Virus record (IMG/VR): IMGVR_UViG_3300009425_000044
Location: 1-36,339 of that record
Origin: a virus
DNA: 36,339 nucleotides
Reading direction: 5' to 3' (one strand)
In this document: positions 1 to 17,923 of the stretch, piece by piece
How the letters are laid out: each line of letters opens with the position of its first letter
Numbering within the stretch: position 1 is the stretch's first letter
The notes under the pieces: generated by a model
Database searches by the model: none
The model's input: the letters and a program-made list of their open reading frames with translations, nothing else
What the model was told of the DNA's origin: nothing
Position numbers and translations under genes: made by a program

Positions 1-3000
1 AAACTCAAAGCTGTCGCACCAGTCATCCCTGAATCTCCCCCCATGAAGAAGTTAGGCACTCCGCCTTCGGCTGCTCCAGTTCTCCTTAAAGTCGAGGGGG
101 ATTGACCAGCATTTAGATGCTGACTAATCGCATTACCCAAACTGCCTTGATTGCTACTGTAAACTCCGACTCCTACTCGGTTGTCGTATCCAATCATCGG
201 CTTCGCAGCAGACCCCGATTCCTTTATCCCCATCCTTTCCGCCGAAACTGCCCTCTCTAACGGGTTATTAAAGTTGGGAACAAATCCCCCGCTAAATCTA
301 CGCATCATCGCCAAACGCTGAAGAAGAATGTTCTTGGTCCCTGTACTCCCTGTAATTTTCGAAGGGTCTATCCCTTTTATCTGTTTTCTAAGTTCCGAAT
401 CCTTTACATCGCCAAACCACTCAGAGGAAGAACGACTAGGGTCTCTCAATGAAGCTAACTCTCGAACTTGAGATCCGAACATATCCCCTTTAAGCCCACC
501 TTGAGCTCTATAACGTAATGCTCCACCCGAATCTATTTGAACGACCTTGCCCTTCTTATCTACCATCATGTTGTCTTGAGACATACCAATCGCATCCCAG
601 TCAGCCATCAGCGCAATCTTCGCTGCACGACTTTGGATTTGCTTCATGATGTTATCTTTTTCTCCGGGTAAAGCAGACCTCATGTAAGTCCCCAGAGAAG
701 TCCCACCTTCCAAATATTTAGAGAGCATGAAAGATCTTCCCTGTGGCGTCTTGTTCAGCGAATGATCTGGAACTGGGACTCCTAAAGATCTGTATATTTT
801 ATTAGCTTCAAATTCATTTATGATGTGACCATTAGAAGCACCAAATTTACGGACAAGTTTTTCTCCAGACGGATCTAGCATTAACTCAGCACCAGTTGAT
901 CCTCCCAAATTGGCTAGTTTCTGCAAATTAAAGTTAGGCACGAATCCCGAAGAAAAATAGTCATCTTTCGGGATCGGGTAAGCCTTTTCTTGCGCCGAAT
1001 GGGTTTTAAAACTACCCGGTTTCCCAAACCCCTTTATTTCATTAGAAGGCCAATCTTTGTAGCCTAACTTCATAAGGCTGGTTTTAGCACTCCCCGTACC
1101 TGCTCCTTGCTTAAACATCGACGGCATTAGCAAGGAAATCTCTCTTTCGTGATCGAAACCATATCTCGCTCCGCTTCCTGTTGGTCCTGAGATACCAAAC
1201 TTTTGGGGATCGAAACCTAGCGGTCTTCCTTGAGCCATGTTATACAGAGAATTTAAAGAACCCTCTTTTTTATAGAGTGCTTCTATCTCTTTTTGCCCGA
1301 ATATGTCTTTGCCGGAAAGTCTAGTTTTAGCCATGTACCCATAACCCTTGTCAGGGCCATGTCTCATAGCGAACGTACTAGCAACGTGTTTATTCGTGGA
1401 CGCAGACATGAAAGGATCAAGACCAGAATTGTTAAAGCCACTCCCTAACATATCGCCACTTGACGAATTCCCTATGTGTTTCGAAAGAGCTTTTTTAAGC
1501 TGATCGGGGGTTGACGGCATTCCGATATTCGGTATCCTCCCTTGCCATATGCCCATCCTCCCAGATAATGCATCCTGAACAGTCCCCGCTCCTCCGCCAA
1601 GACCTTCAGGGAGCCTTTGCCTTGCTAGTGCTCTCCTTCCTTCGATACCTCTGTAAACTTCCGTCATACCGAAATTCGGAATATGACCTTTCCCTAGAGT
1701 TTTATTGAAGAACCTTTCTCCTGGCCAAGGGTTACCATTGCCGGTGAAACCGTGCCCATCGACTTGTCCTTTTCTGCTTAATCCCATCCATTTATAGTAG
1801 CTTCTAGCTTTTTCCCTAAAGCCCCCTTGACCGGGTTCGTTTTTTATCCTATCTATAACTGCACGACGTATTTCTTGCGATTTATTCTTCCTTCCTACGT
1901 CAAAATCACCCGTTAATTTTTTTATTCCTAATTTTTTCAGGATTTTTGCTCCTCTTGGTGTCATTAACGTCTTGATCACGGGCGGACCAACTATGGTGGG
2001 AGCGTGAAGAGTATGAAATTTCTCAATCTGGGATAGGTCAGCTCCAGTCCTCGCGAATTCGGCTCTCCGTTCCGAGTTTGTCATCTTACTTATCTGATCG
2101 ACTCTTGCGCTCCTCTGCTTTATCTGATTAATTAATCCCTTCAATCCTCCTACCCCCGACATGTATCCTATGTTTAGCTGTCCGCCATGATCACTAATGC
2201 CGCTTTGCCAACTTGAGCGATGGATGGTCCCCGGAAACTTCGTGGTCTCCGACGCGTTTGAAAAAGACGGAGGCTTCGGCGATGACCGTGGGGGTAGCGG
2301 TGGTCCAATGTCCCAGGGCATTCTCAAGGGCCTTCTCAAGGAGAAATTCGGAACATGACCTCCTGCTAGAGTCTTACTGAATTCCCTTCCTCCCGAATAT
2401 CCAGAGCCTAGATGTCCCCCGGTTTCGCTGAGCCACTTCGGATTAAGAGGCGTCGATCTCTCCGGTTTTTTTAATCCTAGCCATTTATAGTAGCTTTTAC
2501 TTTTTTTCAGAAAGCTCCCTTGACCGGGTTCATCTTTTATTCGTTGGACAAGTGCCTTGCGTATAGAAGGCATTTTGGTGTTAAAACTACCCGTTAAATT
2601 TTTTATCCCTAACCCTTTAAGGATATCCAGTCCTTTTGGTGTCATCAACGACTTGATCACTTTGTGGCCAACTATGTTGGGAGCATGAACAGTAGTATAA
2701 GCACCAGGCCCATTTCCATACTGAGCCGCGTTTTGCCTATTCCTTATCTTATTAATTAATCCCTTCATTCCCCCTACCCTTGACAGCCAGTCTATGGTTA
2801 GCGTTGAAGTGTCTCCCATTAGGTTCCTCGAAAGAAAATTACGCGGGGAAGCCTCCGAATGGGGACGGCGCAATTCATCTCGATGGCGGCGGAGATCGTT
2901 CGGCTTTTTCTGTCCGGGTAGCGGTGGTAGCGGTGGGTCCATTGGCGACGGTAGCGGTGGTCGTGGGTCTCCGCCAACCAAACGGTCGAACCTTCGCGGT

Positions 3001-5693
3001 GGTAGGAGGCCAAAATTCGGGATATGACCTTTCCCTAGAGTTTTTTCGAACATCCTGACGCCCCTGCTATGGCGGCCTTTCCGTTTTTTCATTCCCAGCC
3101 ATTTATAGTAGCTTTTAGTTTTTTGCAGGAAGCTCCCGTGACCGGGTTCGTTTTTTATTCTATCTACAATTGCGCGACGAAAATCACTGTAAGGCTCCTT
3201 CGCTGACTGACCAATGTCAAAATCACCCGTTAATTTTTTTATCCCTAACCTTTTAAGGACAGACGCTCCTCTTGGCGTTATTAACGACCTGATTACCTGC
3301 GGACCAACTATGGTGGGAGCGTTAAGAGTATGATAAGGCTGAATATGCGATAAGTCTGTTCCAGGAGGGAGTCGCATTTGTTCAGCCAAACGTTCCGAGC
3401 TTGACATCTTGCTTATCCTCTCAGCGTATGCCTTCCTATCTTTTATCTGAGTAGCTAATCCCTTCATTCCCCCTACACCTGACATGTAGCCTATGTCTAA
3501 CTCTCCCAATCGCAAGTCCCGACCGCCACTTGCCCGATCAACGTCAGAACTACTAGCCCAGTCTGAGCGTCTCCTTTGAGATGCGAACTTCGTGGGTGGC
3601 TTCGCGTTCGTCTGCGTTGACCAAAATGACGACGGACTCGCCGCCCCTGGTGATGATGGATGCGGCGGGACGAAACGACCTGATCTAAAGGCTCCCATCA
3701 TATTGAAATTCGGAACGAAGCCTTCGGCTCCCATCTGCTGACCCATCGCACGGCCAATCCTATCTGGTCGGCTACTTGAGTATGGGTCTATCCCTGTCTT
3801 AGAAATAGATTTGATCCTATGCTTTTTACCTGCCTTGCTATCCTTTGGCGGACTAATAAAAGGTTGCTTGAAGCCGCCTAAAAAATCAACTTTCTCTGCA
3901 TCGTTGTAGGTCACCTTACCTACCCCAGCCATACTAAAGCTCTTGACCTCGCCCGGACTGTAGCCTCCAGCATAAGCGTTTACCCTTTCTGCCGTCCTGT
4001 TCTGCGCGTTAGTTTCGGGTATGTGTCCAGACGCTCTCCCTCTCCCTCCTCCCATTTGGAAGCCTCCTGTTTTCGAGTTCTGTATCATCCCCCCTCTCAT
4101 TCCCATCGCGGCGACATTCATCCCGAGAAGAGAATTCTGCTGCATCGCCACGCCTTGGGCTCTTATAGAGGCTAAGATGTCTTTTTGAACCATAGCCATC
4201 GAACTCGTCCTTGAAAGAGATAGTTGGATTAACTGAGGATTTTGAGCCAACATTTCGTTGATCTGCTTTTGGAGCGTCCTCTGCTGTGTGGTTGCGTCAT
4301 TTATGCCTATGATTTGCCTTAGCGCGATTCCCGAAAACTTTATAGCACTACCCAATGTTTTCGCTATGGCTACCACCGCTATACCTAATCCGGGTCCAGA
4401 TATAGCCGCCCCTAACCCTTTGATAAGACCTTTCCCGATATTAGCCCCTAATCCTTCCGCCCCTTCTTTTGGGGTAAGAGCCTCCGATATCTTACCTCCT
4501 ATATTTAAAATATTCTTCAGGGCTGGGCCCACCAAGTCCTTACCTATTACTGCTCCAAATTCTTTGAACGACTCTGTAACTTTATTGACTAACGCTGATA
4601 TCGTAAGATTTAATTGAGCATTTCTCTGTAGCGCAGAATTATTATTCCTCAACGCTATCTCTTGCGCTTGATCAAAGAGATTGTACTCTTTCGACAAGTC
4701 GGAAATTGCTGCCATCAATTGGTTAACTTGATACAAGCCACCAGCCATGATCTTGACTTGCTGCTGTTGAGATTGGCCTAGGCCATCGTACGCCTTGGCT
4801 GTATTCTTCAATATTTGCAAACTATTAAGCCATAGTCCGTTTTGCTCTTTTACTTTAATGCCCATCGCAGCTAACTGCTCCATGGCCTTGGGCCTTTGGA
4901 TCTTGACAAAAATGGACTTAATTGCGTTACCAATAACAGGAGCGTTAAGAGCGGTCTTTTGTTTAATCACTGTTATCAACGCGCCAAGCTCCTCGAAAGA
5001 AACACCAGCAGTAGCAGCGGCAGAAGCTGATCTTTTCAGGGCCTCCGCCAAGTCCCCAGTGCTTACGGCAAAATTAGCATCCAAGTTAGCAAGTTTATTA
5101 ACGACCTGAGTAGAGGTGAGACCAGCGGCGGTAAAAGTATTCATCGCGGCAGTGAGAGCTTCAACTGCTGCTTTGGAATCTAAACCAGAAAGACGGACTA
5201 ATACCATCGCGTCCCTAACCCTTATCATAACCTGCTCGGTGGTGAGACCTTGCCGTGCTAACTCATTAGCAGAATCAGCTACAGTACCAAAAGCCTGACC
5301 CGTATCTTTGGCTATTGCGAATAATTTACTGCGAAAATCTGAAAGCTCCGATGTCGTCCCTTTTAAAAGAACATTGATTTGGGCTAGTCTTTTCTCTACA
5401 TCAATTGTACTCGAAACTAACTCCTTCATTGCCGAGCCAACAGCATATATAGCTCCAGCGGAAGCCCCGAAAGCAAAAACACGAGCATTGGCGGCAGCCA
5501 TTGACTTCCCAAACTGATCTGCTCCTTGAGTCATTGACCCAAGAGCCATCTTAGAAGCACCCGAATCGGAAGATGAAATAGGGTTAAATTTTGCCTTTTT
5601 CTCTATCCTGTTAAGAGAACTCTTAACATTCCTCTCTAGACCCCTAGTGTCTAGTCTTGCTCTAACGTCAATAGTTGCTACTGGTGCTGCCAT
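1..5693 (-). CDS. Tail tape measure protein with C-terminal enzyme-module array (partial, runs off window)
   Basis: This open frame starts at ATG 5693 and stays open to position 1, giving at least 1,897 residues with no stop. The N-terminal third (about residues 20-420) reads as a tape-measure core: alternating helices, Ala/Gln-rich, with an ELGALITVIKQKT-type stretch seen in TP901-like tape measure proteins. A hydrophobic Gly/Ala/Ile segment lies near residues 418-450. Beyond residue about 650 the protein becomes modular, and each module ends in G[FH][VI]PNF (residues 658, 889, 1112, 1336, 1583, 1803, and a shortened form near 1878). Modules 2-4 are related copies. The next carries an ADP-ribosyltransferase-like signature and the following one a kinase-like signature. 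Known role of the family: it sets tail length, fills the tube and is ejected at infection. Delivery of the extra domains into the host is my inference. The gene is last in the tail block, as expected. Confidence 0.88.
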   Translation of the reverse strand, partial: MAAPVATIDVRARLDTRGLERNVKSSLNRIEKKAKFNPISSSDSGASKMALGSMTQGADQFGKSMAAANARVFAFGASAGAIYAVGSAMKELVSSTIDVEKRLAQINVLLKGTTSELSDFRSKLFAIAKDTGQAFGTVADSANELARQGLTTEQVMIRVRDAMVLVRLSGLDSKAAVEALTAAMNTFTAAGLTSTQVVNKLANLDANFAVSTGDLAEALKRSASAAATAGVSFEELGALITVIKQKTALNAPVIGNAIKSIFVKIQRPKAMEQLAAMGIKVKEQNGLWLNSLQILKNTAKAYDGLGQSQQQQVKIMAGGLYQVNQLMAAISDLSKEYNLFDQAQEIALRNNNSALQRNAQLNLTISALVNKVTESFKEFGAVIGKDLVGPALKNILNIGGKISEALTPKEGAEGLGANIGKGLIKGLGAAISGPGLGIAVVAIAKTLGSAIKFSGIALRQIIGINDATTQQRTLQKQINEMLAQNPQLIQLSLSRTSSMAMVQKDILASIRAQGVAMQQNSLLGMNVAAMGMRGGMIQNSKTGGFQMGGGRGRASGHIPETNAQNRTAERVNAYAGGYSPGEVKSFSMAGVGKVTYNDAEKVDFLGGFKQPFISPPKDSKAGKKHRIKSISKTGIDPYSSSRPDRIGRAMGQQMGAEGFVPNFNMMGAFRSGRFVPPHPSSPGAASPSSFWSTQTNAKPPTKFASQRRRSDWASSSDVDRASGGRDLRLGELDIGYMSGVGGMKGLATQIKDRKAYAERISKMSSSERLAEQMRLPPGTDLSHIQPYHTLNAPTIVGPQVIRSLITPRGASVLKRLGIKKLTGDFDIGQSAKEPYSDFRRAIVDRIKNEPGHGSFLQKTKSYYKWLGMKKRKGRHSRGVRMFEKTLGKGHIPNFGLLPPRRFDRLVGGDPRPPLPSPMDPPLPPLPGQKKPNDLRRHRDELRRPHSEASPRNFLSRNLMGDTSTLTIDWLSRVGGMKGLINKIRNRQNAAQYGNGPGAYTTVHAPNIVGHKVIKSLMTPKGLDILKGLGIKNLTGSFNTKMPSIRKALVQRIKDEPGQGSFLKKSKSYYKWLGLKKPERSTPLNPKWLSETGGHLGSGYSGGREFSKTLAGGHVPNFSLRRPLRMPWDIGPPLPPRSSPKPPSFSNASETTKFPGTIHRSSWQSGISDHGGQLNIGYMSGVGGLKGLINQIKQRSARVDQISKMTNSERRAEFARTGADLSQIEKFHTLHAPTIVGPPVIKTLMTPRGAKILKKLGIKKLTGDFDVGRKNKSQEIRRAVIDRIKNEPGQGGFREKARSYYKWMGLSRKGQVDGHGFTGNGNPWPGERFFNKTLGKGHIPNFGMTEVYRGIEGRRALARQRLPEGLGGGAGTVQDALSGRMGIWQGRIPNIGMPSTPDQLKKALSKHIGNSSSGDMLGSGFNNSGLDPFMSASTNKHVASTFAMRHGPDKGYGYMAKTRLSGKDIFGQKEIEALYKKEGSLNSLYNMAQGRPLGFDPQKFGISGPTGSGARYGFDHEREISLLMPSMFKQGAGTGSAKTSLMKLGYKDWPSNEIKGFGKPGSFKTHSAQEKAYPIPKDDYFSSGFVPNFNLQKLANLGGSTGAELMLDPSGEKLVRKFGASNGHIINEFEANKIYRSLGVPVPDHSLNKTPQGRSFMLSKYLEGGTSLGTYMRSALPGEKDNIMKQIQSRAAKIALMADWDAIGMSQDNMMVDKKGKVVQIDSGGALRYRAQGGLKGDMFGSQVRELASLRDPSRSSSEWFGDVKDSELRKQIKGIDPSKITGSTGTKNILLQRLAMMRRFSGGFVPNFNNPLERAVSAERMGIKESGSAAKPMIGYDNRVGVGVYSSNQGSLGNAISQHLNAGQSPSTLRRTGAAEGGVPNFFMGGDSGMTGATALS
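384..929 (-). other. Kinase-like (HipA / PI-kinase-like fold) domain inside the tape measure protein
   Basis: Residues about 1589-1770 follow a GFVPNF motif and resemble an atypical kinase. A G-S-T-G turn precedes a Lys-bearing strand (LVRKF) and then a helix with Glu (NEFEANKIYRSLGV). A hinge-like LSKYLEG follows. The catalytic-loop-like M-A-D-W-D1700-A-I-G-M-S-Q-D1707-N1708 comes next, and a metal-binding-like Q-I-D1721-S-G-G-A-L-R-Y-R-A-Q-G comes last. The D...DN...ID-x-GG layout is shared by HipA, actin-fragmin-kinase-like and PI3/4-kinase-like enzymes. The spacing is compact, about 180 residues, so it would be a minimal member. Substrate is unknown, and protein or lipid phosphorylation are both possible. 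Calling it a kinase rests on motif order alone. Confidence 0.58.
1104..1667 (-). other. ADP-ribosyltransferase-like domain inside the tape measure protein
   Basis: Residues about 1343-1530 show the three landmarks of R-S-E class ADP-ribosyltransferases in the right order. These are Y-R1348-G just after a GHIPNF motif, then PF-M-S1430-A-S1432-T followed by an Ala/Phe helix (VASTFA), and finally H-E1516-R-E1518-I-S-L-L. Spacings of about 82 and 84 residues are compatible with the fold. In this family the Arg and Ser residues hold NAD and the second Glu of E-x-E is catalytic. The usual S-T-S is S-A-S here. A degenerate RIPNI copy of the linker motif lies inside the domain near position 1530. Target and activity are unknown. 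Phages such as T4 inject ADP-ribosyltransferases (Alt), which makes a takeover role plausible but unproven. Confidence 0.62.
1671..2180 (-). repeat. Tape measure module copy C
   Basis: Third related module. It has GYMSGVGGLKGLINQI, HTLHAPTIVGPPVIKTLMTP, LGIKKLTGDFDVG, DRIKNEPGQGGF, RSYYKWMGL and ends in KTLGKGHIPNF, immediately before the ADP-ribosyltransferase-like domain. It is closer to copy A than to copy B in the first half. Confidence 0.8.
2343..2803 (-). repeat. Tape measure module copy B
   Basis: Second related module. It has WLSRVGGMKGLINKI, TTVHAPNIVGHKVIKSLMTP, LGIKNLTGSF, RIKDEPGQGSF, KSYYKWLGLKK and ends in KTLAGGHVPNF. It lacks part of the segment following the first landmark that copies A and C have. 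A proline-rich linker precedes it (about 2890-3000). Confidence 0.8.
3012..3503 (-). repeat. Tape measure module copy A
   Basis: First of three related modules within the tape measure protein. Landmarks are IGYMSGVGGMKGL, then HTLNAPTIVGPQVI, LITPRGASVLKRLGIKKLTG, a helix RRAIVDRIKNEPGHGSF, KSYYKWLG and a terminal KTLGKGHIPNF. It shows no recognisable catalytic motif and is rich in basic and aromatic residues. Confidence 0.8.
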
Positions 5694-5729: not shown

Positions 5730-6794
5730 TTACTTTACGTTATGTATTTTCATTAGCTCATAAATGTCTAGTTTTCCGCCTTTCTTGGCTGCTTCTTTAG
5801 ATAAACTTATATATTCTCCTTGATCTTCCCCTAAACCAAGCCTCTCCAGATCCTCTTTCGTCGCCCCGACAAGGCTAGTAGCACCACCCGCTTTTTCTTT
5901 ACCCTCTAATGGGTCCTTCCCCTTGGCGTCTAGGCTCTCTATAACCTTCATCGCCTCTTCTCCCTGTTCAAAGAATTCTGTTAACTTGTCTGGATCATCA
6001 TACATCTCATCAGGCGGCTTGTTCTTAGAGTTTTGCAGCATATTCTTATAGTTCTTCCCAAAACTATAAAGTTGAACTTGATAGAACGTTAGATTGACGA
6101 TTGGCTTACCGAAAAAATAATAAGGGTTATCTTCAGATACATAAAAAAAGTTTAAAAAGAATCCAGAGAGAGCAATGCGTTTTAAAGTTTCTGATGAGAA
6201 CTTTGTATTGACGGCGTTATAGTTAGCGACTAAATCCGATAACTCCTTAGCGGATAAGTAGTCAAAGTCTTCGCAGCTAAAAAAAGGTTCTTTCAAGTCT
6301 CTGTCTTTATACAAAGATGAAAAAACATAGTACTCGTTTGTTTTCTTTTGAGCATACTTTTCCGAAGTAAACCCAATAAGCTCCTCTCTTTTAGCCAAAC
6401 TTTCAAAAAAAGTTTTGTTATTAGCCTCTATTTGAACCTCTATTTCGTTTTTTTGGTCTTGTATGAAAAGCTTTTTCTTACTTATTTCTAAGCTTTTAAT
6501 GAAGCCCTCAAGCTCCTTCATGTCCTCTTCGTCTTTAGAAGTCCAAAGTTCCTCCCCGTCTAAAAACTTTAGTTGATCCCCCTCTTTGACGAGACCCATC
6601 GTCTCTGATTTGTTCGTAGCCTCTGAATGCACCTCGTCTACTCTAGCGGAGTCCATAGACGTGAAGTGTTTTATGTAACAATCTTCTCCCTTGAAATAAT
6701 CAAACGCACTATATCCAAAAATTATATCGTTATATATAAACCTAAGCTTCTCCTTAGGAATCTCAAATTTTTTCTTTTTACTTTCGCTTTTCAT
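5730..6794 (-). CDS. Unknown tail-assembly protein, 354 aa
   Basis: I do not recognise a family. The protein is Lys/Glu-rich and mostly helical, with an aromatic patch near residues 210-250 (GFFLNFFYVSEDNPYYFFGKP) and a charged, probably flexible, C-terminal third. It lies between the tail tube and the tape measure gene, where siphophages encode tail assembly chaperones, so a chaperone or tail-associated role is the contextual guess. The ATG at 6794 directly abuts the T tract of a terminator-like hairpin. The 3' arm of that hairpin supplies AGGTGG, nine bases before the ATG, which could serve as the ribosome binding site. A later internal start cannot be excluded. Confidence 0.75.
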   Translation of the reverse strand: MKSESKKKKFEIPKEKLRFIYNDIIFGYSAFDYFKGEDCYIKHFTSMDSARVDEVHSEATNKSETMGLVKEGDQLKFLDGEELWTSKDEEDMKELEGFIKSLEISKKKLFIQDQKNEIEVQIEANNKTFFESLAKREELIGFTSEKYAQKKTNEYYVFSSLYKDRDLKEPFFSCEDFDYLSAKELSDLVANYNAVNTKFSSETLKRIALSGFFLNFFYVSEDNPYYFFGKPIVNLTFYQVQLYSFGKNYKNMLQNSKNKPPDEMYDDPDKLTEFFEQGEEAMKVIESLDAKGKDPLEGKEKAGGATSLVGATKEDLERLGLGEDQGEYISLSKEAAKKGGKLDIYELMKIHNVK

Positions 6795-6820
6795 AAAAAA
6801 ACCCCACCTAAGTGGGGTTT
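6795..6820 (-). terminator. Rho-independent terminator fused to the next start codon
   Basis: Minus-strand hairpin AAACCCCAC / GTGGGGTTT, nine perfect pairs with a four-base loop, followed by seven T and then ATG of the downstream gene. It lies 16 bases after the stop of the 348-residue gene. The stem core matches the terminator near 8190. Confidence 0.8.
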
Positions 6821-6836
6821 CATGGTCTAGTGCTTA

Positions 6837-7883
6837 TCAATTTTCGGTCCCTTTATCTTCGGGCTCTTCTGACTCTTCGGACTCTTCGGACTCTTCGGGT
6901 GGCATTTCATCCTTGGACTCTTCAGCTTCCTTTTCAGCTTCGACTTCCTTTTCGGCTTCGACTTCCTTTTCGGCTTCGACTTCCTTTTCGGCTTCGACTT
7001 CCTTTTCCATCTCTTCTGCCTTGGCTATGACATCCTTTTGGGCTTCTTCCATCTTCTCTTCCTCTTCTTTTATAAGATCACTAAAGGCTTCATCTATGTC
7101 TTCTTTTGGAATTCCGCCTCCAGCTTCCGAAGTGGAATCTTCCAGCATCTGCTCTGATTTGGATAGAGCCTCGAATTCTTCTTGAGTACTCGCTCTTCCA
7201 ACGTACCAATAACTTATGTAATAGGAATAAGTCCTTAAAACTTCGTCGATGTAATCGTTCCCTTCTTCTTCTAGGGCATCATAAACCGTTAGTTTTTCTT
7301 CCGAATTTCCATCCCCGAAAAAGGGAATCTCATCCCCAGCTTCTGAGGTTTCGTAGGACAAATTCAAAACCCACCACATAATCGTTTTCGTCCGCGCTCT
7401 GTTTTCGGCGGTTTGATCGAAAAAACTAGCTTGAGCAGTTTCGAAGTCCTGTATTTTAGCTCTACACCCGATCAACGCTCTTACGGCTGCGTTGTATTTC
7501 TCACGTTCTTCTTCCGTCTGCTCTGCTTTCGGGATTATCTGTAAGCGAGTAACCTCGTTTTGTAGCTCAAACATAGTGAAGTAAAGCCCAGAATATTGCT
7601 CTTGATCGGCCTCGCTTAACACTCCTCCATCGTTATCGAACCTTTTGGCTAACATTGCCCTCGTGAGCATCCCTGCCTTAATTCCTTCGGACAGCTTAAC
7701 GCCAAAATATAATTCAGCCTCGTCAAACATCACCCGCGTAGGTTTTTTAAGGAAAAAAGACCTTTCCTTATTCGTCTCTACGGTCTTCTTGACTGTGACC
7801 TCGTTACCGTCTGCATCTTTACTCTTTTCTTCTTCCTCTCTGAGAACAGGCTGAGTAAGTGTAAATTCGTATAATTTTTTCAT
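6837..7883 (-). CDS. Putative tail assembly chaperone-like protein, 348 aa, with acidic repeat tail
   Basis: The N-terminal 240 residues look folded (YEFTLTQPVLREE, SFFLKKPTRVMFDEAELYFGVKLSEGIKAGMLTRAML). The last 100 residues are almost only Glu, Lys, Ala, Val and Ser, built from tandem KEVEAE hexads followed by EES triplets. This predicts a long charged helix or disordered tail. The start ATG (7883) overlaps the stop of the upstream 78-residue gene by four bases (ATGA), indicating translational coupling. Position between tail tube and tape measure suggests a tail assembly chaperone or tape-measure partner. Length exceeds typical siphophage chaperones, and no frameshift signal was found at its end. 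The function is inferred from context. Confidence 0.72.
   Translation of the reverse strand: MKKLYEFTLTQPVLREEEEKSKDADGNEVTVKKTVETNKERSFFLKKPTRVMFDEAELYFGVKLSEGIKAGMLTRAMLAKRFDNDGGVLSEADQEQYSGLYFTMFELQNEVTRLQIIPKAEQTEEEREKYNAAVRALIGCRAKIQDFETAQASFFDQTAENRARTKTIMWWVLNLSYETSEAGDEIPFFGDGNSEEKLTVYDALEEEGNDYIDEVLRTYSYYISYWYVGRASTQEEFEALSKSEQMLEDSTSEAGGGIPKEDIDEAFSDLIKEEEEKMEEAQKDVIAKAEEMEKEVEAEKEVEAEKEVEAEKEVEAEKEAEESKDEMPPEESEESEESEEPEDKGTEN
6922..7008 (-). repeat. 18-bp tandem repeat encoding KEVEAE
   Basis: On the plus strand the unit cttcgacttccttttcgg recurs about four and a half times with almost no change. It encodes EVEAEK hexads on the minus strand. A separate nine-base repeat (gactcttcg type, encoding EES) lies at about 6862-6897. 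Near-identity at DNA level suggests recent slippage. Confidence 0.85.
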
Positions 7884-8116
7884 TCTTGTTTTTGTTTAAG
7901 TGTTATATTGAGTTTCGAGAAGTTTTCTTCTAGGTCTCTAATAGTGTCATTCCCATGATCGAGAACTCTTTTTCTGGCTCTCTGGTACGATTGGTCATTA
8001 ACCTTATTACCATCTTCATCCTTAATATCCTCAAGGATGAATAGAAACTGTTTATATAAACCAGTTACTTTTCTGGATATTTGAAATCTAACGAATTCGC
8101 CACAATCTTCACGCAT
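7880..8116 (-). CDS. Small tail-region protein, 78 aa
   Basis: Unrecognised. A helical, charged protein (RFQISRKVTGLYKQFLFILEDIKDEDG) with a Lys/Gln C-terminus. The ATG at 8116 is preceded by GAAAGG at good spacing. It overlaps the next gene by four bases, so the two are probably co-translated. It is the first gene after the tail tube terminator and could be the short partner of a tail chaperone pair. The evidence is positional only. Confidence 0.7.
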   Translation of the reverse strand: MREDCGEFVRFQISRKVTGLYKQFLFILEDIKDEDGNKVNDQSYQRARKRVLDHGNDTIRDLEENFSKLNITLKQKQE

Positions 8117-8173
8117 AGAATACCTTTCACCTTTTTCCTACTTCTATTATACACTCGAAACCAAAAAAAACAT

Positions 8174-8204
8174 AAAAAAAAACCCCACCTTTCGGTGGGG
8201 TTTT
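8174..8204 (-). terminator. Rho-independent terminator after the tail tube gene
   Basis: Minus-strand AAAACCCCACC / GGTGGGGTTTT, eleven perfect pairs with a GAAA tetraloop, then T9, ATG and T8. It lies 23 bases after the tail tube stop. A strong signal would fit an abundantly expressed gene. Confidence 0.88.
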
Positions 8205-8227
8205 GTTCAGTTTAAGGCTGAGAGTTA

Positions 8228-9481
8228 TTATTGCTCGGCACTGGCGTCTTGAGCTAATCCCAAGTTACCGGGCGCGATACCGCTGATATACAACCCTTGG
8301 TTCGCTTGATTCGGTCCTCCAACTTGAGTGGAGAATTCAAAGGTCACAGACTTGTTAGATCCAATATCGGAGCTAAACGACTGAGAGTTGACCTTCGCGT
8401 TCTTCAATCTGTACTGCACGAATATGTCCTTAGTGGACGCACCAGCACAGTTAGTCGGACGCAACAGATTCACCTGAAGGTCGTAAGACTCATCACAATT
8501 TACAAGATCGTTCAGAGAACCCACGGACAAGTCAGCAACTAAAGCGTCGATAGACATGGACGCCGTTATTGGGAACGTGATTTCACGACTAAACGCATAT
8601 CTGCTACCCAGTTTCAAGATGGGTTCACGAGGCATATCCAGAGAGATGTTATAGCTCTGAATTTTAGCGTGTTCAGTATTCGTGCCGTCACCGAGCTTCG
8701 CACCGGGAGCATCGTAGATGCTTACTCCGAGATCTTCTCCAACGTCGATGGACTCCGCTTGACGCTTAGTGAATGAGAAGGTGATGTCTCCGGGTCGGAG
8801 CACACTCACCATCAAATCACCCGTGTCAACAGAACCAGTAGCAGTCGGAAGCTGGAAGTCGAAATCATTATTGCTAATTCGCAGTCCGTTTACTGGATCG
8901 ATAGCTGGGTTGTCTCCAGAAATGTCGTTCTGGAAAGTCATGTTGAGAGCTTCAACATTAACCGAGCAAGTTGGGAAACCTCCCACAGCAGCTTCGGTAG
9001 AGTAGGACGACAAAAACCCGTTTCCGACTCCAATAGTAGATGAAGAGAAAAGGGAATCATGGCTAACTGTAGTGTCGCCGATTGCGTCCACGCCTTCCTT
9101 GGAAGTGCGAATAAAATAGTTTTTATCGTCTTGGTTTTTGTCGATAATGTTCTTCACGCAAGTGTTTGAACCATCGATAACAAAGCCGAGAGCTTGTTCA
9201 TTGGCAAGGTTGCTCAAGAGATAAGAGAAGTCCAAAGACACCGTTGGGGTATCTAAGTTAACTCTATCAATAGCGGCCAACTCGCCGAATTGGTTGACAT
9301 CCGTCCGATCAATGTTGAACGAATAGTTCGCGCTTTGAATTCGGTGTAGCTGCTTGATTGTGTTCCAACCAGCAGTAGCACTTAAAGTAGCCACGCCAGT
9401 GTATTGTTGCCCTGTTGCGGGAGTTGGCCCTACAAAAAGGGCTTCGCTTTGATAAATGACTCTATTTCTTCCGTAACCCAT
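8228..9481 (-). CDS. Major tail tube protein
   Basis: A 417-residue beta-rich protein starting MGYGRNRVIYQSEALFVGP. It is clearly paralogous to the protein at 24232-25371: both share the N-terminal RNRV-YQSEA-VGP signature, a PTV-x-L/G-x-x-SYL segment, a K-E/E-EGVD-A loop and a C-terminal LKNA...GSNK-V...F...G-L/F-SG block. Position before the pre-tape-measure genes, a strong terminator directly after it, and isolation from the upstream gene by 97 bases all fit a highly expressed tube protein. GGAG lies nine bases before the ATG. Homology to a named tube family was not checked. An alternative is another repeated tail-shaft protein. Confidence 0.72.
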   Translation of the reverse strand: MGYGRNRVIYQSEALFVGPTPATGQQYTGVATLSATAGWNTIKQLHRIQSANYSFNIDRTDVNQFGELAAIDRVNLDTPTVSLDFSYLLSNLANEQALGFVIDGSNTCVKNIIDKNQDDKNYFIRTSKEGVDAIGDTTVSHDSLFSSSTIGVGNGFLSSYSTEAAVGGFPTCSVNVEALNMTFQNDISGDNPAIDPVNGLRISNNDFDFQLPTATGSVDTGDLMVSVLRPGDITFSFTKRQAESIDVGEDLGVSIYDAPGAKLGDGTNTEHAKIQSYNISLDMPREPILKLGSRYAFSREITFPITASMSIDALVADLSVGSLNDLVNCDESYDLQVNLLRPTNCAGASTKDIFVQYRLKNAKVNSQSFSSDIGSNKSVTFEFSTQVGGPNQANQGLYISGIAPGNLGLAQDASAEQ

Positions 9482-12175: not shown

Positions 12176-13015
12176 TTATTTTGATTTATTCTTACCGTAG
12201 TCTCCGTTCACAGAATATACGTTATTTCCGCAAAATACACTGAAAAATGAGCCCACAGTACCAACATATATGGTGTTTACTTTTCCTTCTACGTATTCTT
12301 TCTTACCTTTGTAATGCTCCGCTCGGAATACTTGTCCGTCCACTAATACCGGATGGTCATTAGTTATGTGCAGTTCGTCTTCTATTATGTAGTACCCTTC
12401 TCTTGGGTGATCTTTTATTAAAGACTCTACTTGAGTCAGCCCATCCTCGGTATGAATGAAATCCCCGATTTTCAAATCCTCCACTCTCACCAAAGAGCCA
12501 GAAGCGTGTTTAACCAACATGTCAGGTAACAGACAGAAACCACCGGGACCTTTACCCGGACCACCACCGCCACCGTAATCATCCATAACCGCACAAATGT
12601 CATTTTCGTTAGCGCATATGACACAGCCAGTATATGGTCCACCATAAGCGTAACTGTCTGGATTACCTGTGGCATTGAGGCTAAGAACCTTAGCGCAATA
12701 CGCGCTGTCACTAACGTATTGGTTTACTGCAACTGTCATACCTTGTCCATCCCAGACCTGATACGCTCCGCTTGTTTCGCCATCTAAATCAGTCAGTAAT
12801 GTACAATCGCAATCACCACCTTCTTCGTCATACTCGAGGATTCTAACATTAAATTTTGTCGTGGTTGCTGCGTATTTGTCGTAAAACTTGACCCAGCTTC
12901 CTCCCTGTCTTTTATAGGCTTCTTCAGCCTCTGTCCAACTTCCTCCGCTCTTGGAATAAAGGTTAGTAACATTCGTCCAAGAACCTCCGTTTTTTATATA
13001 ATTCGGATTAGACAT
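12176..13015 (-). CDS. GGSW-repeat fibre-type protein with C-terminal Hint (intein-like) domain
   Basis: A 279-residue protein with three parts. Residues 5-45 hold three GGSW repeats spaced exactly 14 residues apart (W13, W27, W41), as in phage fibre and adhesin linkers. Residues 50-145 form a Cys-rich globular part (C69, C71, C107, C131, C134, C141). After a poly-Gly linker, residues 161-275 match a Hint domain. C161-L-L-P-D-M follows GGF, then VRVEDLKIGDFI (block A), ITND-H221-P (block B) and a terminal GNNVYSVNG (block F-like). Hint domains cleave or splice the chain at the first Cys. The usual His-Asn end and C-extein are absent, so N-terminal cleavage or ester formation is more likely than splicing. 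Lies between collagen-like fibre genes and connectors. Confidence 0.75.
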   Translation of the reverse strand: MSNPNYIKNGGSWTNVTNLYSKSGGSWTEAEEAYKRQGGSWVKFYDKYAATTTKFNVRILEYDEEGGDCDCTLLTDLDGETSGAYQVWDGQGMTVAVNQYVSDSAYCAKVLSLNATGNPDSYAYGGPYTGCVICANENDICAVMDDYGGGGGPGKGPGGFCLLPDMLVKHASGSLVRVEDLKIGDFIHTEDGLTQVESLIKDHPREGYYIIEDELHITNDHPVLVDGQVFRAEHYKGKKEYVEGKVNTIYVGTVGSFFSVFCGNNVYSVNGDYGKNKSK

Positions 13016-13021
13016 TAGGCT

Positions 13022-15256
13022 TTAGGTTTTAAACCAAACATCTCCGTTATCACCTCCACTAGGACTGCTAGAAGATACTGTTATATTAATACTTGGCCCA
13101 GTTGCGCCAGTAGGACCTGTTCCCCCAGCGGGTCCAGCGGGACCAGTAGATCCGCCACCACCAGCGGGTCCAGCAGCACCAGTCGCACCGGAAGGACCAG
13201 TTGAACCAGCAGGACCAGCAGGACCAGCAGGACCAGCAGGACCAGAGCCTCCTGAAGAACCAGCGGGTCCAGCAGCACCAGTCGCACCGGAAGGACCAGT
13301 CGAACCAGCGGGACCAGCGGGACCAGTAGGTCCAACTGCCCCAGTAGCACCAGAAGGTCCACTAGCACCTGAAGATCCAGTAGCACCAACATCACCGGAA
13401 GGTCCCTTTAGGTCGTCTACTGTTCTCCATCCTACCCGCCCTTCGTCAGCAGCAGATAAAGTTAATATTTGATTGCTGCTACCAGAAGCGGCTTCTAAAT
13501 AAACGGTTCCGCTTACCGCTAATCTTTCTGATTTTGCCGCGTGTGTGTACCCGACCATTAAGCTAGAGGAACTCGCTGCGCCTATTGAAACGTCACCATC
13601 CACGTCTAGTTGGAGCCACAATGCATCGCCATCGAAAGACTGAATGGTGTTCGGCCTACTGGCTCCCGTTCCTATGGCGAGATCCCCAGCCAATATGCCT
13701 CCAGAAGCATAAGGTATGTTAGGCACTTTTATAAATGAGCTACTAGGATTGCTTGTAGTACTATAAACGAGACTAGTCGCTCCTGCGAAAGCACCATTAT
13801 TATTATATTGAAATTCTCTATTGGAGCCCGAAGGAGTTCCTCCGCCTCCTGCTCCAGCAGGACCAGCGGGTCCAGTTGAACCAGCGGGTCCAGCGGGACC
13901 AGCGGAGCCTGTAGCTCCAGTAGGACCAGCCGAACCGGCGGAACCAGCGGGTCCAGCGGGTCCAGTAGGGCCAATAGCCCCTGTCGCCCCACTAGGTCCT
14001 GTGGGCCCATTTAAGTCATCTACCGTCCTCCACTTTACCCGACCTTCGTCTTCATCAGATAAAGTTAGTATTTGATTGTCGCTACCAGAAGCTGCATGTA
14101 AATAAACGTTTCCGCTTACTCCTAATCTTTCTGATTTCTGACCGGGTCTATAACCGATTTGTAAACTTGACGCGCTACGTTCTCCTACTGAAATGTCACC
14201 ATCCACGTCTAGTTGGAGCCACATTGGATCGCCATCGAAAGACTGAATGGTGTTCGGTCTACTGGCTCCCGTTCCTATAGCGAGTTCTCCAGCTAATATA
14301 CCTCCAGTAGCAAAAGGTAAGTCGGCTACTTTTATAAGTGCACTACTAGGATTAGAAGGAGTGCTGTAAACAAGACTAGACGCTCCTCCGAAATTGCCCA
14401 TATTGTTGTATTGAAATTCTCTATTAGAGCCTGAAGGAGTCCCCCCGCCTCCTGCTCCAGCGGGACCAGTGGGACCAGCGGGACCACTGGCTCCACCGGG
14501 ACCAGCGGGACCAAGGCCACCAGCGGGACCAGCGGGACCAGCGGAACCCGTAGCTCCAGAAGGACCAGTCGAACCAGCCGAACCAGCGGGTCCAGTCGAA
14601 CCAGCGGGTCCAGTCGAACCAGCGGAGCCTGTAGCTCCAGTAGGACCAGCCGAACCAGCGGGACCAGCCGAACCAGCGGGACCAGCGGGTCCAGTCGAAC
14701 CTCCAGCTCCCGGAATTCCTGAAGGTCCAGTAGGACCAGCCGAGCCATCCGAGCCATCGTTACCGGGGTTACCTTGGGGTCCTTGCGGACCAGCGGGACC
14801 AGCAGGTCCTCCATCTGGCCCAATAGCTCCTGAAGGGCCAACTGAACCAGAAGGACCAGTAGGTCCAGCAGGGCCAAGATTTCCTTGAGATCCTGTTGAC
14901 CCTGATGGTCCAATAGGGCCCACAGGACCAGTAGAACCCACAGGACCAGTAGAACCCACAGGACCAGCAGAGCCTATAGATCCAGTCGCCCCAGAAGGAC
15001 CAGTGGAACCTACTGATCCTTGAGGTCCCTGAATGCCTTGAACTCCTTGAGGCCCTTGAGACCCGGTAGGCCCAGTAGGACCAACAGGTCCTCCAGCGGG
15101 TCCTTGGGGTCCTTGGGGCCCTTGCGGACCAGCAGGACCAGAAGAACCAGCGGGACCCGAACTACCTGCGGGACCAGTAGACCCAGCAGGGCCGCTAGTC
15201 CCAGAGGGGCCTGAAGGTCCGACTTCCCCTACTTGTCTGTTAATCCAATTAGCCAT
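13022..15256 (-). CDS. Collagen-like fibre protein 1 (744 aa) with duplicated internal domain
   Basis: Gly-x-y repeats rich in GPT, GPS, GPA and GAT occupy residues about 10-265, 420-466 and 620-720. Between them lie two copies of a 150-residue beta-type domain (about 266-419 and 467-619; [55 protein letters not shown]). The C-terminus ends in [10 protein letters not shown], a motif common at the end of phage fibre proteins. Collagen-like phage proteins trimerise and form stalks. Proline is mostly in the x position. The protein precedes the connectors rather than following the tape measure gene, so it may decorate the head or neck. No transmembrane segment was seen. Confidence 0.88.
13400..14461 (-). 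repeat. Duplicated fibre domain in collagen-like protein 1
   Basis: Two copies of one domain lie at about 14000-14461 and 13400-13859, offset by about 602 bases with long near-identical DNA stretches. Both are followed by a new collagen block. This is a recent in-frame domain duplication. Confidence 0.85.
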
Positions 15257-15688: not shown

Positions 15689-17923
15689 TTAACCAAGAAT
15701 TATACTATATTTTATAATTTGTCTGGTCAGATCTGCACTATCTAAAGCTCCAGACACAGTCAAGGTCCCTCCAATTACAGCCGTGGTGGTGCTCACTGTG
15801 CCTCCCGACACCGTCAAAGAGCCTCCTACTGAAGTATTACCAAAAATTACAGAACTACCACTATTGACAATTCCACCTGAACCGAAATTAGTTGTTGTAT
15901 TTATACTCGCTGGAAATTGTATGCCCCCAGTGCCCAGAACGAGTAAAGTCGTCGAATCACCAGATTGCATTACATCATTTATAAGAGGCGTTCTTCTTAC
16001 TATGAAATTATTATCAACATTCCTTAATTCGACTACGTCTTCACCCACCATATAAATGCTATCGCCTTTAACAAATAAATCCTTCCAAGGTTTAACCACA
16101 GAGCCTATGTCGAAAATTCCGCTCTCCTTAGGCATAAGATCTCCACTAATATGTACTCCGCTATAAAGAGATATTGTGTTCCCGCTCTCGATGACTAACC
16201 CGCCAGAACTAATTACTATTCCGCTAGTTATCCCTGATGTTAGGGTTACTGATGGCCCAGAAGGACCGACGTTCCCCTGCTCTCCTTTATCTCCAGTTCT
16301 AGCAAAAGTTATTACTATATTCTCATCGTTATCAAGCGAACTAACACTTCCGTCTATATACGTACAGTTAACTTCAAAGTAGCCAACGTTCTCTGTTATC
16401 GAATTTACGACATAAATAACAAACTTATCGCTATCGTCTTCGTGAGATACTTTAAAGTGACCTTTTACCGTGCTGGTGGAATCGTCTATCGTTCTCAAAA
16501 AAGATTGTATATCGTTTGAGTATATATCTTTATCGTCTATATAGAGAGTAGTCGCTAATGCTAAATTAGAGTTATTAAATCTTAGATCCCCTGCTGCTCC
16601 ACCGGGAGACGGATCAGCATTCGTCGTGCTGGTATCGAACGTATACCGGAAAGAAGCTCCGCCAAAACTGCCCTGTGGGCCAGTCGGCCCAATAGATCCT
16701 GTGCTTCCTGTAGGACCGATGCTTCCTCCCGCGCCAACGGAACCTGCGGGACCCGTAATCCCAGTCGCTCCAGAAGGACCAGTCGGGCCAATCGGACCAA
16801 TAACACCGGAATGACCAGACGGCCCAATAGGACCCGTGACAGTAGAAGATGCCCCCACAAGTCCACTAGCACCAGAGGGTCCGGTTGAGCCAATAGACCC
16901 AGCGGGACCAGTAGGCCCAGCGGGACCAGCAGCCCCAACAGGGCCAACGGAACCTGTAACACCAGAAGGCCCAACGGGACCAGCAGGTCCGATAGGTCCA
17001 GCCACAGTTGAAGGCGAACCCGTAGCACCGGATGGGCCAGTTAACCCTCTCGGGCCAGTAGGCCCAATAACGCCAGTCGCACCGGAAGGTCCAGTAGATC
17101 CTAATGGCCCTATAGGACCTATAGGACCTGTAACACCTAATGGCCCCTGAATTCCTTGAGCTCCTTGAGGTCCTTGAGCTCCTACTCCACCAGCAAGACC
17201 GACAGGGCCTTGTACTCCACTAGGGCCAGTAGAACCTACGGGGCCAGTAGGCCCAATATCCCCATCGTCTCCTTTATCTCCTTCGGGACCAGCAGGGCCG
17301 AGAGGACCGATAGGACCGACAGTGCCTTGCGATCCTTGAGGACCTCTCGATCCAGCAGGGCCAGTGACACCAACGGAACCAGTGGGGCCAACGGACCCGA
17401 CATTTCCTTGAGATCCTTGAGGCCCAGTTGATCCGCTCGGACCGCTAGAACCAGCGGGTCCAGTGGGTCCAGTTACTCCTATAGCCCCAGATGGTCCAGC
17501 GGGACCAGCGACAGTAGACGCCGTACCTGTTGGGCCTACAGGGCCCGTTAAACCAGTGGCTCCAGATGGGCCAATAGAACCAGCGGGACCTACAGGACCC
17601 GTAGGCCCTATAGAGCCAATCCCCCCGCTAGGTCCAGTTGGTCCGGTGGGACCTAGACCCGTACCGCGAGGACCCGCAACTCCTGACGGCCCAGTAAGAC
17701 CGATGCCGCCTGAAGGTCCGATAGGACCAGTCGGGCCAAGCGGACCTTGAGGACCCTGCACGGGAATAGAAACAGTTGCTGTTTGAGAATCAGAAGGACC
17801 GATAACGGAAGAGGACGTAGTGGCGACTTGGGTAGTTATAGTCGCCGAATTAGAAGAGCTCGTACTGGTTACGCTCGATAACGCGCCAGTAGAGATCGTT
17901 GCGGTTATAACTTGGTCAGGCAT
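15689..17923 (-). CDS. Collagen-like fibre protein 2 (744 aa)
   Basis: An N-terminal Ser/Thr-rich head (residues 1-55) is followed by Gly-x-y repeats over about 57-418. A globular domain follows (about 420-545; [35 protein letters not shown]), then a short second collagen stretch. The C-terminus is beta-solenoid-like, built from Gly/Ser/Thr turns with GG at regular intervals ([10 protein letters not shown] near the end). Its length equals collagen-like protein 1 exactly, although the non-collagen domains differ. Likely a trimeric virion fibre. The start overlaps the upstream stop (TGATG). Alternative names such as tail fibre or head fibre cannot be separated here. Confidence 0.86.

Follow-up and report, generated by a model that had tools for sequence, protein, structure and literature searches.

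A kinase-like cassette in a phage tail tape-measure protein carrying motif-bounded, exchangeable domains

Analysed here is a virus record of 36,339 bases, IMG/VR IMGVR_UViG_3300009425_000044 (the window), whose left end is taken up by a long open reading frame (ORF) in which positions 384-929 of the minus strand encode a predicted protein-kinase-like domain. This ORF codes for a tail tape-measure protein (TMP): it matches two TMP profiles over their curated cutoffs (TIGR01760, 123.1 bits, cutoff 28.8; PF10145, 90.5 bits, cutoff 33.2), and 16 of its 17 rows of PHROG matches are named tail length tape measure protein. Its sequence suggests that it would lie in the tail tube. The kinase-like domain is one of a row of cassettes bounded by a hexapeptide and comes after a putative ADP-ribosyltransferase-like (ART-like) segment (Table 1).

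The reading frame runs off the contig end, and chance or an assembly artefact might be suspected of having joined a kinase to a TMP. We find this scarcely credible, because an independent contig repeats the order in a complete ORF of 2951 amino acids (aa) with syntenic upstream genes. That contig bears two of our labels, L008 (found via its kinase) and L178, and its ORF consists, in order, of the TMP N-terminal part, an SNase domain (PF00565, E 1.3e-6, over cutoff), a nuclease-like segment (recognised by eye), an ART-like segment, GFIPNF, the kinase and the TMP C-terminal part. Besides the N-terminal match given in Table 1, the window and L008 TMPs share a second match of 41% identity over 323 aa, and the pair of upstream genes is 31% (E 9e-50) and 30% (E 7e-31) identical to that of L178. 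On L178, the two genes preceding the TMP (6992-8747, plus strand) overlap, in different frames, by 32 bases and in this resemble the frameshifted pair of tail chaperones in other caudoviruses. Cultured phages gave only partial TMP matches to the cassette TMP (140 and 66 phage records), none of which reaches 80% query coverage; a single-protein scan with the whole TMP across viral contigs found no relatives, alignments being required.

Table 1. Features of the tape-measure ORF and of the genes upstream of it; aa numbering is that of the TMP as read from the window.
Feature	Positions	Strand	Basis or remark
TMP ORF	3..5693	-	1897 aa read; runs off the left end of the window, 3' end outside the window
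TMP N-terminal part, aa 1-657	3723..5693	-	36% identity to L008 TMP over 629 aa
First motif GFVPNF, aa 658-663	3705..3722	-	Preceded by conserved linker QPFI-x-PP...TGIDPY
Three copies of one domain, aa 664-888, 895-1111, 1118-1335	1689..3704	-	GHIPNF/GHVPNF between copies; one cluster
Motif GHIPNF, aa 1336-1341	1671..1688	-	
ART-like segment (putative), aa 1342-1582	948..1670	-	R1348 in YRG, S-A-S 1430-1432, E-R-E ending E1518 (alignment A7)
Motif GFVPNF, aa 1583-1588	930..947	-	Directly precedes kinase
Kinase cassette (predicted), aa 1589-1802, fold ~1589-1775	288..929	-	AlphaFold2 model, PDB/BFVD fold matches, homologues
K1616, beta3 Lys	846..848	-	145/147 domains
E1627, alphaC Glu	813..815	-	145/147 domains
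D1700, catalytic-loop Asp	594..596	-	147/147 domains; falls within search pattern
D1707-N1708, metal-binding loop	570..575	-	N in 147/147 domains, D in 91%
D1721, DFG-type Asp in I1720-D1721-S-G-G	531..533	-	147/147 domains
Motif GFVPNF, aa 1803-1808	270..287	-	Ends kinase cassette
Terminal short segment, aa 1809-1876	66..269	-	BLASTP match to the closing ~65-aa segment of L008
Two genes upstream of TMP (354, 348 aa)	5730..7883	-	Syntenic with L178

The window TMP holds eight G-x-[VIL]-P-N-[FI] motifs, against a mean of 0.018 (maximum 1) in 2000 shuffles. Two scans with the TMP linker yielded 70 TMP loci, 68 of which have at least two motifs in one ORF, the remaining two being one contig cut at its end. 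At 203 motif sites, G, P and N are each present in 100%, position 2 is F in 88%, position 3 is I in 82% and V in 16%, position 6 is F in 98%, and the next residue is A in 74%; the search pattern fixed G, P and N and limited positions 3 and 6, and left position 2 and the following A free. Motif counts are slightly low because the [VIL] pattern misses the GFMPNF of L008. Most complete ORFs have their first motif at aa 627-658 (605 in L190, 787 in L172), and the cassette region differs by hundreds of residues. Once identical or contained cores had been dropped, 40 distinct TMPs, the window included, provided 163 cassettes that fall into 41 clusters and occur in 31 different orders (blastp E<1e-4, 60% coverage; at looser coverage, 142 cassettes gave 27 clusters). 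The cluster types include SNase, GNAT, P-loop, nuclease-like, ART-like and kinase. The domain triplicated in the window (GYMSGVGG...SYYKWLG) has a weak match to PF20710 (DUF6824, E 2.6e-5), under cutoff, and relatives of it were not found among local ORFs. Cassettes L170 c4 and L218 c3 contain a P-loop-like GxxGxGKTT motif, that of L170 without a Pfam match over cutoff.

Closely related TMPs indicate how these rows change. L178 and L175 both open with SNase and cluster 3, followed by the ART-like and kinase cassettes in L178 and by cluster 13 and the end segment in L175; the two proteins are 97.5% identical in their N-terminal and 71% in their C-terminal parts; with L179, whose N-terminal part is 97.3% identical to that of L178, the comparison sets the ART-like and kinase cassettes at places 3-4 of L178 against clusters 13 and 17. 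L174 and L173 are 98.5% and 99.2% identical in their N- and C-terminal parts, and cassettes 12, 7 and 10 of L174 are missing from L173. As N-terminal parts that are more than 97% identical are followed by different cassettes, we conclude that payload cassettes have been exchanged. In other TMP pairs with near-identical N-terminal parts, the C-terminal parts are just 16-45% alike, so that TMP mosaicism extends past the cassettes. The original prediction, which was made from the letters of the window, had taken the tandem of kinase-like and ART-like signatures as a sign of a multi-effector payload, and the motif-delimited, exchangeable cassettes of 40 related TMPs support this. A different view would be that the cassettes work in the particle, where enzyme-like domains co-opted as spacers tune tail length or assembly. 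TMP length sets tail length, and a shared ~65-aa segment (cluster 0, the terminal segment of the window) comes last among the cassettes in 37 of the 40 TMPs. Spacers, however, would have no use for SNase, GNAT and kinase families that retain active-site residues, and near-identical TMPs differ by hundreds of cassette residues; we judge a role in the particle improbable.

An AlphaFold2 (AF2) model of the kinase domain, built from alignment A3 (96 sequences: the window and 95 of 109 non-redundant domains, the remainder dropped by hand), has a predicted local distance difference test score (pLDDT) of 95.6 and a predicted template-modelling score (pTM) of 0.91. Its 204 residues adopt the topology beta1-beta2-beta3-alphaC-beta4-beta5 plus a small C-lobe with few helices, and K30, E41, D114, N122 and D135 (model numbering) sit in a kinase-like manner in beta3, alphaC, the catalytic loop and after beta8. 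Foldseek returned 771 PDB matches at E<=1e-3, of which ranks 1-10 are all protein kinases and rank 11 is LicA. By VIA, all of the 1000 top PDB chains score Z>=5; the best are RIOK1 (4otp, Z 12.4, root mean square deviation (rmsd) 3.5, 167 residues aligned) and PRPK (7sza, Z 12.2, rmsd 3.3, 165 aligned), rows within 1 Z counting as tied. The best BFVD match is a 1201-aa 'portal protein' of an uncultured phage (TMq 0.89, 36% identity). At the level of a model, this confirms that 384-929 (minus strand) encodes a compact two-lobed protein-kinase-like fold. The kinase-like assignment of the original prediction is thus upheld by a high-confidence model, by fold matches and by residue conservation, and the lack of a two-lobed fold, which it had named as counter-evidence, was not seen. 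It had looked for relatives in HipA, actin-fragmin kinase and phosphatidylinositol (PI) kinases; here the kinase fold was recovered, but the nearest solved folds listed are RIO1, PRPK and RIO2 instead. HipA, actin-fragmin and PI kinases are not among the best 50 matches listed in either PDB comparison, which does not exclude kinship, and the kinase profile had no significant match among PDB sequences.

The fold leaves room for an active phosphotransferase that uses a small molecule or a lipid, or for an AMP transferase, instead of a protein kinase. LicA and APH(2'') are among the fold matches and BFVD rank 10 is a virus protein named PI3K/PI4K; the best matches, on the other hand, are RIO and PRPK/Bud32, and although fold does not dictate substrate, we regard such an activity as rather unlikely.

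The sequence of the domain bears out the active-site reading. In the translation of 384-929 (minus strand) we confirm the Lys-bearing strand, the Glu helix, D1700, D1707-N1708 and I-D1721-S-G-G in kinase order after GFVPNF, as originally described. Among 147 domains (the window and 146 others; P0002 denotes the kinase domain numbering used here), D112, N120, D133 and the GG pair are invariant, so that the loss of D or DN in homologues, which had been named as evidence against a kinase, was not seen, and K28 and E39 are kept in 145, the exceptions (L119 and L147) being partial sequences. Because the search patterns included N-W-D and GG-x-L-x-[YFW]-R-A, conservation of N-W-D and GG-x-L-x-Y-R-A is partly by construction; the patterns did not include the K, the E, the DN or the D that precedes GG. 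Two positions weigh the other way. Both the window and L008 have Ile at 105, the only two cases among the 147 and Asp in 99% elsewhere, and Asp at 110, where 98% have Asn. These changes in the TMP branch mean that its activity could be altered or lost, and the domain might then be a pseudokinase or binding module, with a kinase fold but no phosphotransfer, that serves as structural filler or target binder. Yet all five residues that define the active site are retained in both TMP kinases, which are themselves only ~50% identical, and we consider a pseudokinase quite unlikely.

The family to which the domain belongs is large. The domain itself (P0002) has no match in Pfam (up to E 1), NCBIfam or PADLOC, and PHROGs gave nothing significant for it. 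In tblastn, 19 phage records match it with 30-36% identity and a best E of 5e-16, and in 16 of these the match spans 80% or more of the domain; they come from phages of Gordonia, Pseudomonas, Morganella, Enterobacter, Yersinia and Aeromonas and from one actinomycete phage. Profile searches gave at least 547 kinase relatives among 599 candidate stretches of IMG/VR, from which 80 viral relatives were retained, and 60 among 104 from GTDB genomes; a single-protein kinase scan of viral contigs found no relatives, alignments again being required. The family also occurs in chromosomes of the Pseudomonas syringae group and in proteins of up to 3000 aa from Gastranaerophilales and other gut bacteria (L099, L100, L122, L126, L147; L123-L146). 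Two kinase proteins, L012 and L041 (1606-1663 aa), look polyvalent; by eye, L041 shows a NUDIX-like stretch, and a helicase-like C-terminal end can be made out.

Outside the TMPs, and as judged from sequence, the family is found in virion-linked phage proteins, as fusions with MuF, portal and ADP-ribosyltransferase (ART) domains. The kinase gene follows the portal gene in GodonK and Mareelih, with an annotated ART two genes further on in Mareelih; in Jeremy, fHe-Yen8-01 and ST4 the kinase-bearing protein is itself annotated as an ART, and the homologue in Yersinia phage fHe-Yen8-01 as a 'phage particle associated protein'. A Pfam scan of the kinase proteins from 47 of the 80 viral loci, taken by length and size, found MuF in 17, ADPrib_exo_Tox in 9, ART in 7, NUDIX in 6 and portal models in 2+1+1. 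A custom ART profile placed an ART in the same ORF at 53 of 146 kinase loci (51 after the kinase, 3 before) and in another ORF at 12, with none at 81. In the tree, the window and L008 kinases form a clade (100/96) within a mostly viral branch, next to the kinase and ART protein L010 with weak support (80/79). This position within a largely viral branch suggests that the TMP kinases were probably acquired once, from a virion-effector source. A scan with the two TMP kinases only found five loci, namely L008's contig and four others that lack the hexapeptide and retain the catalytic D, N and D.

The segment before the kinase is plausibly an ADP-ribosyltransferase. R7, S89, S91 and E177 are invariant between the window segment and three other TMP cassettes, with E-x-E in three of the four; in a ranking of cassettes by the ART profile these four lead at E 0.004-0.34, the window segment standing third of 164 (E 0.034). 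Comparison with 37 phage ARTs by hhalign gave a weak match (Prob 44.8, E 2e-4; kinase control 0.1%). The R-S-E triad of the predicted ART-like neighbour is present; its AF2 model has a pLDDT of 36.7 and is unusable, and there is no Pfam match. Searches with tblastn in phages and phmmer in the PDB gave only E above 1, and neither phmmer among 6265 local ORFs nor a single-protein scan of viral contigs found relatives.

We suggest, with moderate confidence, that the TMP carries an active minimal kinase-like payload cassette that is delivered at ejection and modifies host targets early. The G-F-[IV]-P-N-F motifs would mark the cassette borders. At DNA ejection the TMP, if present in the tail as its identity predicts, would exit and arrive at the host inner membrane or cytoplasm, where the kinase, once released at the motif, and probably also the preceding ART-like domain, would modify host targets early, much as the injected ART Alt of T4 does, in the case of the kinase by phosphotransfer. 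The original prediction spoke of an ejected protein; the payload array is borne out, whereas ejection we infer from the carrier being a TMP. During injection, the lambda TMP is labelled by ManZ-TurboID, an inner membrane proximity probe (PMC13190303).

Besides the two active-site replacements, several points weigh against this proposal. The kinase profile matches only two of the 163 cassettes, those of the window and of L178/L008, and most cassettes lack a recognised enzyme, one of ten representatives (GNAT) having passed the Pfam cutoff. For the putative ART identity of the adjoining segment, the model is of low confidence and the profile scores are weak. A folded 20-kDa domain that fills the tail tube or passes through it is hard to picture, and known TMPs aid DNA across the membrane and need not free domains into the cytoplasm. 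A bolder version, which we advance tentatively as falling somewhat short of probable, is that in a family of uncultured phages the TMP acts as a programmable multi-effector magazine, in which the hexapeptide would be a cutting or hand-over site, delivery of the nucleases, acetyltransferases, ART-like enzymes and kinase would be serial and ahead of the DNA, and phages would swap cassettes by recombination at their borders. Pfam recognised no protease for the motif among ten window proteins and gave one sub-threshold Hint-like match.

Alt travels in the phage head and the T7 protein kinase is made inside the cell. Both are phage-encoded and modify proteins of the host early on, and Alt is injected (PMC5512222). 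Polyvalent proteins, which occur in phages and in conjugative elements, likewise hold many effector domains, ARTs and minimal kinases among them, in one polypeptide for which co-delivery with DNA is predicted (PMC5512222). Their kinases have lost most of the C-terminal subdomain, and the group has a catalytic-loop His and Asp with an insert, where the window family has N110-W111-D112 instead; 'tape measure' does not occur in that paper, and its accessible text does not mention a repeated hexapeptide delimiter. The MuF polymorphic toxins of temperate phages also place exchangeable enzyme domains on a virion protein, but this is a portal-linked head protein with a C-terminal toxin, whereas in the window the carrier is a tail protein and the cassettes are internal; that paper uses neither 'tape measure' nor 'kinase' (PMC5576092), and MuF (PF04233) was not found in the window TMP. 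Closer in vehicle are the Sle1 and Tme effectors of contractile injection systems, which share a TMP-like carrier and a variable functional domain (PMC13277306, PMC11126660). They belong, however, to bacterial injection systems, where the window is from a phage; the accessible text describes one C-terminal domain and no motif-bounded row, and contains neither 'kinase' nor 'ADP-ribosyl' (PMC13277306). TMPs with peptidoglycan hydrolases (TM4, SPbeta YomI) share an enzyme domain within the TMP; these target the cell wall and aid entry, in contrast to the nucleases, GNAT, ART-like and kinase domains of the window group. The atypical kinases RIO1 and PRPK/Bud32, the best fold matches, share only the fold, with similarity across the whole domain and a small C-lobe, as the identity is 9-17% and no Pfam family profile matches up to E 1.

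Virion proteins rich in effectors, and injection-system effectors derived from TMPs, are thus already known (PMC5512222, PMC5576092, PMC13277306). For a phage TMP as vehicle of an array of motif-bounded, exchangeable enzyme cassettes we found no published description: a search of open papers, with most subscription papers and bioRxiv preprints outside it, gave no phage TMP with an effector-domain array, and the strings GFIPNF and GFVPNF occur in no paper of that literature. The tail TMP may join the vehicles thought to carry phage enzymes into the host, and the idea that TMPs enter the cell as effectors, and are not conduits only, becomes testable. The hexapeptide offers a sequence handle for finding such payloads, the cassettes supply many uncharacterised candidate anti-host or anti-defence domains, and a large family of the kinase fold, for which neither Pfam nor NCBIfam has a model, is now defined.

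The Hint-like match lies in a 279-aa ORF beside the tail-fibre genes of the window (12179-13015, minus strand); it covers the C-terminal part (Vint, PF14623, E 3e-5, sub-threshold), and the protein is possibly self-processing. Two 744-aa ORFs of the window (13022-15256 and 15689-17923, minus strand) have strong matches to collagen-like tail-fibre PHROGs.
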